Shown in pieces: positions 5,742-9,405 of a stretch of 23,208 nt of DNA (positions are counted from its first letter, which is position 1; every line of letters begins with the position of its first letter). Location of the stretch: the IMG/VR virus record IMGVR_UViG_3300043436_000504, positions 1-23,208 of that record, one strand, 5' to 3'. Under the pieces are notes generated by a model. That model did not search any database, was not told the DNA's origin, and was given only the letters and a program-made list of their open reading frames with translations. Origin of the DNA: a virus. A program made the position numbers and the translations under genes.

Positions 5742-5846
5742 TAGTCAGGGAAGGATTCGAACCTTCACAACTCGTTTGTCTGCTGGAACGAGTACTCCCA
5801 ATGGTTGCGACCCATACATTGCGGTTACCTATTTCGCCACCTGACT
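5742..5846 (-). tRNA. class II-like tRNA with atypical anticodon arm
   Basis: The acceptor stem AGTCAGG/CCTGACT pairs over 7 bp. The T arm GAAGG-TTCGAAT-CCTTC is perfect. The D arm (GCG, AAATAGGTAAC, CGC) looks like tRNA-Leu. The long variable arm ACTCGTT/AACGAGT pairs over 7 bp, as in Leu, Ser or Tyr tRNAs. CCA is not encoded (ACA follows). The anticodon arm is abnormal: TATGG-GTCGCAA-CCATT gives four good pairs and a T-T mismatch, and the loop would carry anticodon CGC, which does not match a class II tRNA. The 5' strand seems about 4 nt too long; dropping 4 nt would give AATGG/CCATT. At 105 nt it is long. Isotype undetermined; it may be degenerate. Confidence 0.7.
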
Positions 5847-7536: not shown

Positions 7537-8291
7537 TTGAATGAAGTTTTATTATTAGCAATTTGCAAATCAAAAAATAAAGCTACGGCTACGGCTCGAG
7601 CCTGGTTCTTTAACCATTGCTCAGTCCACTCGTCTCGGTACTGCTTTGCACTTATGATGTCCATTTTATTAGCTTTGTAGGTAATAATCTCCATAAGTTT
7701 CTTTTTAGCAAGTGCGCCATCTTCTTTTGTCCATACCTTGATGCCTGAACTATTAAGCTTTGTAAATACACTTAGTGGGTTAAACAACCTGTCAAAAGTT
7801 CTGTTTTCTAAAAGCTTATATTCTTGATAAGAGTAATCTATTATCTCTAAATCGGTTAAGTGAGGAATTGCTTCTACTCGTTCTTGTGGCATCATTTTTC
7901 TTACTTCGTTTGCTTTTTTCTTATACCTATCCATTACCTGACTAAAATAAGCAGGACTAAAGTTCTGGTAGTGGTCTATAAAGTCATTGGCTACCATTTG
8001 CTTAAACGCTACTTTAACCTCGTTTATTGTAAACGCTCCGTACTCGGTTCTTATCCAATCTTCTAAAATTGCTAACTTAACTTCGCCAGGATTGTTTATG
8101 CCTACAAGTTGCATCAAGTAAACAAGGTTTTGTTTAAATATGGTAGAGTTCAGATTGCGTACCCTCTCCCCCGAAAAGCTTTGCATAATCTCCTTCTCCA
8201 TAGGAAGTAGAGTGGATATAGTTGTAGTTTCTAAGGTTGTCGAGTTCGTGCTTATTAAGTTTTGGCTTATTGTTTGTAGTTCCTTTTGCAT
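7533..8291 (-). CDS. replication-region protein, replisome-organizer-like
   Basis: The 252-residue protein has a Ser/Thr-rich N-terminus (about 1-30). A helical block follows with 'KLAILEDWIRTEYGAFTINEVKVAF' in the 72-96 region (shown by its elements LEDWI, TINEV and AFKQMV). 'NFSPAYFSQVMDRYKKK' comes near 109-125. This pattern recurs in Bacteroidota phage and prophage replication modules. The C-terminal part is helical with no catalytic motif. It may load a helicase or contact the origin, by position only. The start at 8291 overlaps the previous gene by 158 nt; internal ATGs at 8201 (MEKEIMQ) or 8186 would shorten the overlap. An ACTAAACA-like leader precedes 8291, which favours the long form. 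Confidence 0.6.
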   Translation of the reverse strand: MQKELQTISQNLISTNSTTLETTTISTLLPMEKEIMQSFSGERVRNLNSTIFKQNLVYLMQLVGINNPGEVKLAILEDWIRTEYGAFTINEVKVAFKQMVANDFIDHYQNFSPAYFSQVMDRYKKKANEVRKMMPQERVEAIPHLTDLEIIDYSYQEYKLLENRTFDRLFNPLSVFTKLNSSGIKVWTKEDGALAKKKLMEIITYKANKMDIISAKQYRDEWTEQWLKNQARAVAVALFFDLQIANNKTSFK

Positions 8292-8859
8292 ACTGTTTAG
8301 TGTTTGTTATCCAATTATTTGCTGCTGCTCCCCAACTTTTCATTGGGTTCTTACCTACTTTCCACCCATTGCTTGTGTAGTAATTTACAAACTTTTCGGC
8401 TTCAATCTTTGCTTGATCTATTCCTATCCGGATTGCCATATATTCGTAAACCTGGTCAAAAGTACACTTACTTTTATTTATATTTATATCTTCATTTTCA
8501 TTTTCATTTACATCTTCCATAAGGTTATGTTTAGCTAAACCTAATGGTTTTGTGTTATTTTTAGGTCTACCACCCTTAGAGCCATTGTTTCTGCGGCTTT
8601 CAGTAAATTGAATACGTTTTTCAATCTCTTCGCTTAGGCGTTCATTAAAAAAATTTCCGTCTTTGTCTTTTGAAAACTTGCTCAAAACATCAACCGAAAC
8701 CGAACCTAAAGATAACCTAATGGTTTTGTCTGTAAGTGTACCTTTTTGGTGTTGTAAACATAAGAGAGTAATAAATTGTCCTCTCTCTTCCATTGTTAAG
8801 TCAGCTACTCCATTTAGGAAGTCGCTGCTATAAAATAGGAATGCCGGGTCTTTTGCCAT
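8134..8859 (-). CDS. DUF1376-type phage replication protein
   Basis: The N-terminal domain (about 1-80) reads 'PAFLFYSSDFL', 'MEERGQFITLLCLQHQKG', 'LSEEIEKR', a DUF1376/YdaU-like domain common in phage replication initiators. A basic 'GSKGGRPKNN' linker (about 93-102) and a low-complexity Asn/Glu run (about 115-127) follow. The C-terminal domain (about 133-190) contains 'KFVNYYTSNGWKVGK' and 'MKSWGAAANNWI', the hallmark of primosomal helicase-loader-like domains. The likely role is recruiting host replication proteins. Its ATG lies 13 nt after a strong terminator hairpin, so expression needs read-through of that structure. Confidence 0.8.
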   Translation of the reverse strand: MAKDPAFLFYSSDFLNGVADLTMEERGQFITLLCLQHQKGTLTDKTIRLSLGSVSVDVLSKFSKDKDGNFFNERLSEEIEKRIQFTESRRNNGSKGGRPKNNTKPLGLAKHNLMEDVNENENEDININKSKCTFDQVYEYMAIRIGIDQAKIEAEKFVNYYTSNGWKVGKNPMKSWGAAANNWITNTKQYAKGTTNNKPKLNKHELDNLRNYNYIHSTSYGEGDYAKLFGGEGTQSELYHI

Positions 8860-8860
8860 A

Positions 8861-8903
8861 ATAAAATAAAAAAGCCCCCAATAGAGTCCAGCTATCGAGG
8901 GCT
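8861..8903 (-). terminator. intrinsic terminator/attenuator before the DUF1376 gene
   Basis: On the minus strand the 31-nt hairpin (8873-8903) has a continuous 12-bp stem, AGCCCTCGATAG with CTATTGGGGGCT, including two G-U pairs. It has a 7-nt loop, CTGGACT, and is followed directly by TTTTTATTTTAT. This is a textbook rho-independent terminator. It lies inside an operon, and no room for a promoter remains between it and the ATG at 8859. It therefore probably acts as an attenuator or ends a short RNA. Confidence 0.75.
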
Positions 8904-8951
8904 ATTATTTAACCACTAAACACATTATCGGCTGGACTTTCGCTAATGTGT
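8873..8951 (-). ncRNA. two-hairpin RNA with complementary loops (kissing-loop candidate)
   Basis: Hairpin 1 (8920-8951) pairs ACACAUUA with UAAUGUGU around a 16-nt loop that contains AGUCCAG. Hairpin 2 (8873-8903) is the terminator, with loop CUGGACU. The two loops are perfectly complementary over 7 nt and over 8 if one flanking base opens. Hairpin 1 can extend inward by a CG/CG pair after a G-A mismatch. A promoter-like TATATTCG box (8967-8974) would start the RNA just ahead of hairpin 1. Either a short terminated RNA or a regulatory leader fits. No match to a named riboswitch is recognised. Confidence 0.6.
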
Positions 8952-8966
8952 CTTTTATTTATGCTG

Positions 8967-8997
8967 CGAATATACACTAAATTTCTTTAAGTTCTAA
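8967..8997 (-). promoter_or_regulatory. candidate promoter for the structured RNA/DUF1376 leader
   Basis: On the minus strand TATATTCG (8967-8974), identical to the box at 636-643, is preceded after 19 nt by TTAG (8994-8997), a partial match to the TTTG element. A start a few bases further on would place the 5' end just before hairpin 1 of the structured RNA. The weak upstream element lowers confidence. Confidence 0.4.
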
Positions 8998-9405
8998 TTT
9001 TAAACAAAGTTTTTTTAGCTTCGTTTTAAACCAGTCCTCAGTTTCGATTAGGTTATTTGCTTGTTTTATGTTATGGATAGCCGTTGTGTGGTCGCTTGTT
9101 CCTGTGTACTGGCTTATCTCCTTTAGGCTTAACTTGGTGTATCTCCTGAGTAAATAAGCAGCAGCCTTGCGACCGAACGTTGTTTTTAATGATCTATCCT
9201 TAATTAATACATCGCACTCAAACTCTTCGTCTACCAATTTGACAATAGTCCTTGCGCCAATGTCTAACCCTAAAGGCTCGTTATCTTCTATGCCTAACAA
9301 TCCAAGTTGCTGCATCATTTCGTGTAGCTGCAAATGGGTGTTACGTTGCGCAAAGTATAACTCCTTTAACTGTCTAATTGATATATCTCTTTTTCTCGTT
9401 AGCAT
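8977..9405 (-). CDS. orphan DnaA domain IV-like DNA-binding protein
   Basis: The 142-residue protein has no AAA+ ATPase. The N-terminal half is helical and unassigned ('RQLKELYFAQRN' near 11-22). The C-terminal half (about 78-135) matches the DnaA box-binding domain: 'RKAAAYLLRRYTKLSLKEIS' elements followed by 'SDHTTAIHNI' (about 104-113), the counterpart of the DnaA signature DHTTVxHA. The arginine usual in GRDH is replaced here by serine. Such a protein could bind DnaA-box-like sites in a phage origin, or compete with host DnaA; both are inference. It follows the small SSB-tail-like gene by 2 nt. Confidence 0.8.
   Translation of the reverse strand: MLTRKRDISIRQLKELYFAQRNTHLQLHEMMQQLGLLGIEDNEPLGLDIGARTIVKLVDEEFECDVLIKDRSLKTTFGRKAAAYLLRRYTKLSLKEISQYTGTSDHTTAIHNIKQANNLIETEDWFKTKLKKLCLKLELKEI

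Follow-up and report, generated by a model that had tools for sequence, protein, structure and literature searches.

A candidate kissing-terminator leader ahead of replication genes in Flavobacteriia phages

The DNA analysed here, a stretch of 23,208 nucleotides covering positions 1 to 23,208 of IMG/VR virus record IMGVR_UViG_3300043436_000504 (hereafter the window), carries a putative intrinsic terminator immediately in front of the first gene of a replication module. Why should a terminator stand at this point, and why should its tip loop be complementary to the loop of a second hairpin lying just upstream?

Organisation of the locus

On the minus strand the element runs from a promoter-like box through hairpin 1, a linker, the terminator hairpin and a U tract to the start codon of the replication module (Table 1). 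A preliminary description had proposed two hairpins with complementary loops, one of them a terminator, and every part that it named is present in the sequence and in the fold. Hairpin 1 is slightly longer than the 8 bp given there, while the loop-loop pairing, put at 7-8 bases, is indeed 7 nt long, or 8 nt if the loop-closing base is included. The start codon lies, as stated, 13 nt below the terminator stem, and between promoter and ATG there is no room for a second promoter, so that the replication gene would depend either on read-through of the terminator or on transcripts begun further upstream.

Table 1. Features of the element and its neighbours in the window
Feature	Positions	Strand	Description and basis
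Upstream neighbour, DnaA domain IV-like helix-turn-helix (HTH) protein	8977-9405	(-)	Pfam PF08299; kept upstream in related loci with genes listed
Promoter-like sequence	8967-8997	(-)	-33 TTA at 8997-8995, -7 box TATATTCG at 8974-8967; TTA-N20-box; predicted start ~8962
Hairpin 1	8952-8919	(-)	9 bp (one G.U), mismatch, 2 inner bp, 10-nt loop; fold and consensus fold
Kissing loop 1, AGUCCAG (predicted contact)	8938-8932	(-)	within hairpin-1 loop; covaries with loop 2
Invariant linker block AUGUGUUUAGUGGUUAAAU	8907-8925	(-)	overlaps 3' arm of hairpin 1; includes mini-ORF MCLVVK
Mini-ORF AUGUGUUUAGUGGUUAAAUAA	8925-8905	(-)	MCLVVK, 6 codons
Predicted intrinsic-terminator hairpin	8903-8873	(-)	12 bp (two G.U), 7-nt loop; fold and stem covariation
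Kissing loop 2, CUGGACU (predicted contact)	8891-8885	(-)	terminator loop; covaries with loop 1
U tract	8860-8873	(-)	terminator stem to start codon; sequence; T-rich in every aligned relative
First gene of downstream operon	8134-8859	(-)	241 aa, replication-module, primosomal-like, DUF1376-related; PHROG hits; start codon at 8859

The region folds with a z-score of -3.54, and none of 200 shuffled sequences was equally stable. The terminator hairpin (-16.9 kcal/mol) is followed directly by the U tract, and both are kept in all aligned relatives; with this stable G+C-containing hairpin and U tract, positions 8873-8903 have the sequence signature of an intrinsic terminator. The hairpin is predicted to be stable on its own, without any contact to hairpin 1. 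The 20-nt spacing between the TTA and TATATTCG fits the -33/-7 promoter type of Bacteroidota, in agreement with the preliminary description, which had placed a promoter-like box just upstream. A TAnnTTYG motif is present in every element of the window family; flavobacterial housekeeping promoters have the -7 consensus TAnnTTTG at positions -12 to -5 (PMC9723704, PMC6847099).

The downstream gene had been labelled DUF1376. This label is weak, as a Pfam search with the protein encoded at 8134-8859 gave no hit, although the protein does match a distant phage protein annotated as DUF1376, along with PHROG primosomal families. The protein and its homologues at loci L101, L102 and L178 are mosaics, in which differing N-terminal domains are joined to common C-terminal parts (approximately residues 130-241), and this suggests the swapping of modules beside a conserved leader. 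Elsewhere in the window, a 105-nt Rfam tRNA match (5742-5846, minus strand; 40.6 bits) has a long variable arm, and its anticodon arm is unusual and oversized. ARAGORN makes no tRNA call at these positions, which possibly hold a degenerate or insertion-bearing phage tRNA.

Conservation of loops, linker and position

The window belongs to a group of uncultured phages. Related loci were chosen on the downstream protein alone (56-99% identity), and the element lies directly 5' of the gene wherever upstream DNA is present. An alignment of 50 distinct relatives was used to examine covariation. The preliminary description had staked its idea on the behaviour of relatives that keep the stems, in which the loops should not lose their complementarity, and the idea survived: 99.4% of cells in the 7-bp loop-loop helix remain paired across the 50 distinct sequences, amid two-sided, compensatory changes at five of its seven pairs (112 cells, which count sequences and not events, the phages being related). 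The loop-loop covariation score is 0.765, as against 0.191 (sd 0.023) in shuffled alignments and at most 0.149 when the loops are slid relative to one another. Both hairpin stems covary too, that of hairpin 1 with two-sided changes.

An automatic count returned five loop codes, AGTCCAG, AGTCGAG, CTGCGAA, GTACGAA and CTACGAA, each accompanied by its exact complement. Inspection of the sequences clearly shows a sixth, GAGCGAA/TTCGCTC, which the count had set aside on account of stem mismatches. As isolated 7-bp helices the six codes have predicted energies of about -7 to -10 kcal/mol. Only two elements, L045 and L197, contain a loop mismatch (one each), which weakens the predicted loop-loop helix to only -2.3 and -5.6 kcal/mol; each combines a loop 1 and a loop 2 that are known from other combinations, and from their sequences both look recombinant. 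One loop code is found with different first genes. The number of codes, together with the slid control, makes a phylogenetic artefact unlikely and, as judged from these sequence comparisons, the loop complementarity of the window family is maintained by evolution. Chance had been called unlikely from the geometry of the single locus. On that ground the arrangement would be no more than suggestive, since shuffled sequence yields about two terminators with such a matching 7-nt loop in an upstream hairpin per 928 kb; it is conservation and covariation that make the claim good.

The linker is conserved in a different manner. The block AUGUGUUUAGUGGUUAAAU is unvaried in 52 distinct protein-selected elements, in which most columns on either side show two to four states. 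Within it, the six-codon mini-ORF is kept in 85 of 89 family elements and finishes directly before the terminator, an arrangement that recalls leader-peptide attenuation: ribosomes translating AUGUGUUUAGUGGUUAAAUAA (MCLVVK) would cover the 5' arm of the terminator and so cause read-through. The change of its stop codon from TAA to TGA in L042/L043 and L053 would also fit such a role. However, no copy has any synonymous variation and four elements (L048, L052, L059 and L061) have lost the stop, so that the constraint appears to be on the nucleotides of the linker and not on its codons. Of these four only L048 is then in frame with the gene, and no such ORF occurs in those linkers of other families that were read. 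We therefore consider leader-peptide control very unlikely. In L048, as in L052, L059 and L061, it is a one-base deletion in the linker that abolishes the stop, and in L048 the mini-ORF is then fused in frame to the replication gene, whose product would gain the N-terminal extension MCLVVKYNNPGSSQLSGFIFF. The exact linker has three matches in a set of bacterial and archaeal genomes containing one per species, and the two inspected in context are without the element. A resemblance of the linker to a T-box-like UGGU or tRNA D-loop-like sequence (AGUGGUUAAA) was weighed and gained no further support.

A scan with the linker brought in further loci with a different next gene, which may encode another initiator-like protein, a Lin1244-like replication protein, an HNH endonuclease or a GIY-YIG endonuclease. 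The DnaA-like gene was retained upstream in all seven loci with an altered next gene that were examined, and a replication module follows downstream where the contig continues. Despite this variation in the first gene, each of the 85 distinct contexts has 8-15 nt separating the end of the terminator stem from the ATG. The retained DnaA-like and replication context, together with this spacing, indicates that the element stays put while the first gene is exchanged. Putative free-standing homing endonuclease genes are found between the terminator and the initiator gene, of the HNH type in L088, L163 and L115 and of the GIY-YIG type in L083 and L095; the ATG of the inserted gene occupies exactly the place of the initiator ATG. 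A NUMOD4/HNH gene likewise stands right behind such an element in the Flavobacterium phages tooticki6-1 and snusmum9-1.

With a DnaA-like gene on one side, an initiator gene on the other and adjoining modules swapped at it, the element might be taken for a replication origin or recombination site that folds into hairpins when the DNA is single-stranded. A role at the level of DNA is nevertheless highly improbable in our estimation. Conservation of the promoter box, of the U tract and of the distance to the start codon points instead to RNA, the window has no switch in GC skew, and snusmum9-1 carries three copies.

Elements of similar layout in other phages

The DnaA-like and replication proteins were traced into cultured phages, and these formed the starting point of a wider search. 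A similar layout in unrelated sequence is present in Flavobacterium phages snusmum9-1, tooticki6-1, 11b and FCL-2, in Polaribacter phage P12002L and in IMG/VR contigs; a DNA similarity search of the element against cultured phages gave chance matches only, and the invariant linker is not common to these other families. The genes behind the elements of the wider class are mostly those of replication initiators (FCL-2, P12002L and L245), helicases and homing endonucleases, including HNH enzymes. In the F. columnare phages FCV-1 and V186 the relatives of the helicase gene overlap the preceding gene, so there is no space for such a leader.

When fifteen phage genomes or contigs were searched with a layout scanner, which required a promoter box, a hairpin and a terminator with a complementary tip, six hits resulted, against none in an equal amount of shuffled sequence. 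In this strict form the scanner does not tolerate the mismatch in hairpin 1 and so overlooks the window family; a relaxed version was therefore used over all of the collected sequence. This returned 63 distinct hits with reverse-complementary loops, 21 of them outside the window family. Hits were absent from 1.31 and 1.73 Mb of shuffled sequence (the latter scanned with the relaxed version), and when the required relation between the loops was altered there was one hit with identical (direct) loops, none with reversed loops and five with merely complementary loops. As the scanner was written after examples had been seen, it is the shuffled and non-antiparallel controls, and not the number of hits, that bear the argument; the counts from the latter imply that a few of the 21 outside hits may be due to chance, the most doubtful being that in Cellulophaga phage phi13:2 (L385). 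L233/L237/L238, L211, L424 and L441/L451 were added by eye and stand outside these counts.

In 20 of the 21 other-family elements the terminator lies 9-25 nt above an ORF start. Nearly all elements have 47-55 nt between the starts of their two loops, with 47 in the window family; the spacing reaches 63 in FCL-2. The three copies in snusmum9-1 have three loop codes, with four to six mismatches out of seven between copies. In principle, loop-loop covariation is consistent with pairing within one molecule or between two, the physical contact itself being a prediction; that a single genome carries three mutually incompatible codes favours pairing within one molecule.

These observations bear on the main rival explanation, a free-standing small RNA gene of about 95 nt with its own promoter and terminator, whose product is trans-acting or gains protection from the kissing contact and whose position merely reflects gene packing. 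The element does have a promoter and a strong terminator, its invariant single-stranded linker resembles a binding site, and kissing between the first and last hairpins would join both ends of the RNA. Packing, however, does not readily account for a start codon that always follows within 8-15 nt in the window family and within 9-25 nt in nearly all of the other elements, nor for inserted endonuclease genes that retain this adjacency. Moreover, no conserved trans target of the loop was found within the window, and three codes in one genome argue against one common target. On balance a small RNA gene is unlikely, though it is the alternative that we take most seriously.

A possible mode of action and its relation to known systems

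Three readings had been offered together in the preliminary description: a regulated attenuator, a short terminated phage RNA and a copy-control RNA. The first fits best, because, whichever gene comes first, its start codon lies 8-15 nt below the terminator; the second stays as the rival discussed above, and the third finds little in its favour, as set out below. With slightly better than even confidence, we propose that this RNA forms the 5' leader of the phage's replication operon, where it acts in cis as a transcription attenuator, which might be called a kissing terminator. RNA polymerase would start just above the element and make hairpin 1 first, the linker next and the terminator last, directly before the ATG. 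On leaving the polymerase, the tip loop of the terminator would be caught over 7 bp by the loop of the already folded hairpin 1, and this contact would set the share of polymerases that stop as against those that read through into the replication genes. As the terminator is stable unaided, a conserved contact should either modulate it or protect the RNA. It is more likely to slow completion of the terminator hairpin, leading to read-through, than to strengthen the terminator. With no competing antiterminator helix evident in cis, kissing would have to influence termination itself, a physically plausible mechanism. A phage or host factor probably acts at the linker. Translation may be affected as well, since in Flavobacterium initiation is reduced by structure around the start codon (PMC6847099). 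We infer termination at the hairpin, the effect of kissing upon it, the sign of that effect and the involvement of any regulator from sequence.

In bacterial operon-leader attenuators too, a promoter is followed by a structured leader, an intrinsic terminator and the regulated gene. Here, though, no cis antiterminator helix was found, and it is the tip loop of the terminator that is complementary to the loop of an upstream hairpin. Among Rfam families, the sole match in the window at the gathering threshold is the tRNA-like sequence, which lies elsewhere, the best score in the region of the element being 24 bits, far short of the threshold of 59; seven loci of other families gave no match, and searching at permissive thresholds brought nothing convincing. 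The Guanidine-II riboswitch (mini-ykkC) also has two hairpins, separated by a linker of 7-40 nt, with a proposed kissing contact (PMC7544219). However, that contact is driven by a ligand and made by short tetraloops, whereas here the complementary loops vary freely, the terminator loop has 7 nt and the second hairpin is itself the terminator; the Guanidine-II covariance model gave no hit to the element.

A two-hairpin RNA directly after a phage promoter and ahead of an operon is also seen in the put RNA of phage HK022, an approximately 70-nt leader of two stem-loops that directly follows an early promoter, PL (PMC9378689). By analogy, the kissing complex might bind the elongating polymerase and make it resistant to its own terminator and to those later in the operon, and the fixed loop-to-loop spacing of 47-55 nt does suggest a defined three-dimensional shape. 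Copies of put, however, share their sequence, act on downstream terminators and have no need of an internal one. In the present elements the second hairpin is the terminator and the families have no sequence in common. A put-like action is accordingly judged distinctly unlikely.

In plasmid ColE1, RNAI and RNAII meet through fully complementary 7-nt kissing loops, and attenuators of the pT181 type place a terminator before a rep gene; both systems use sense and antisense partners, and both control replication genes. The complementary 7-nt loops and the replication gene of the window recall these systems, and copy control by an antisense RNA was one of the original proposals. Here, however, both loops lie on the same strand and in the same transcript, and no conserved antisense -7 box was found within 300 nt, which leaves room for an unusual promoter. 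The loop 8-mer occurs in the window only in the two loops themselves, and the 7-mer has one extra copy. This proposal was not borne out, and antisense control is in our view the least probable of the alternatives.

A literature search, chiefly of openly accessible papers, turned up no terminator described as kissing an upstream hairpin through its tip loop. From its sequence and layout the element has the appearance of a hitherto undescribed RNA switch acting on phage replication genes, best filed under leader attenuation. More tentatively, and at somewhat less than even confidence, Flavobacteriia phages may time their replication genes by a general device that is free of sequence, a 5' hairpin kissing the tip of a terminator, in which the codes drift and incompatible copies stand side by side. 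If the proposal is correct, this would be a kind of attenuator in which a tertiary contact with the terminator itself, and not an alternative helix, sets read-through. It would add a regulatory RNA design that sequence searches miss, since only complementarity and layout are conserved, and would explain the control of replication genes in phages of a major, poorly studied phylum. The natural set of mutually incompatible kissing pairs would be useful for RNA circuits.

Several leaders have additional features. A-rich linkers resembling AAAAACATTA recur in other families. In L233, L237 and L238, an extra stem pair (GTTCAT/ATGAAC) and a hairpin (ACCGGC/GCCGGT) lie 5' of the replication gene, followed by the kissing pair GTCGCAG/CTGCGAC. 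In the leaders of L204, L205 and L206 the -7 box region (ATTTGTA or TATTTGCAT) forms an inverted repeat with a downstream TACAAAT or ATGCAAATA, and transcripts that read through from upstream could thus form an extra helix.
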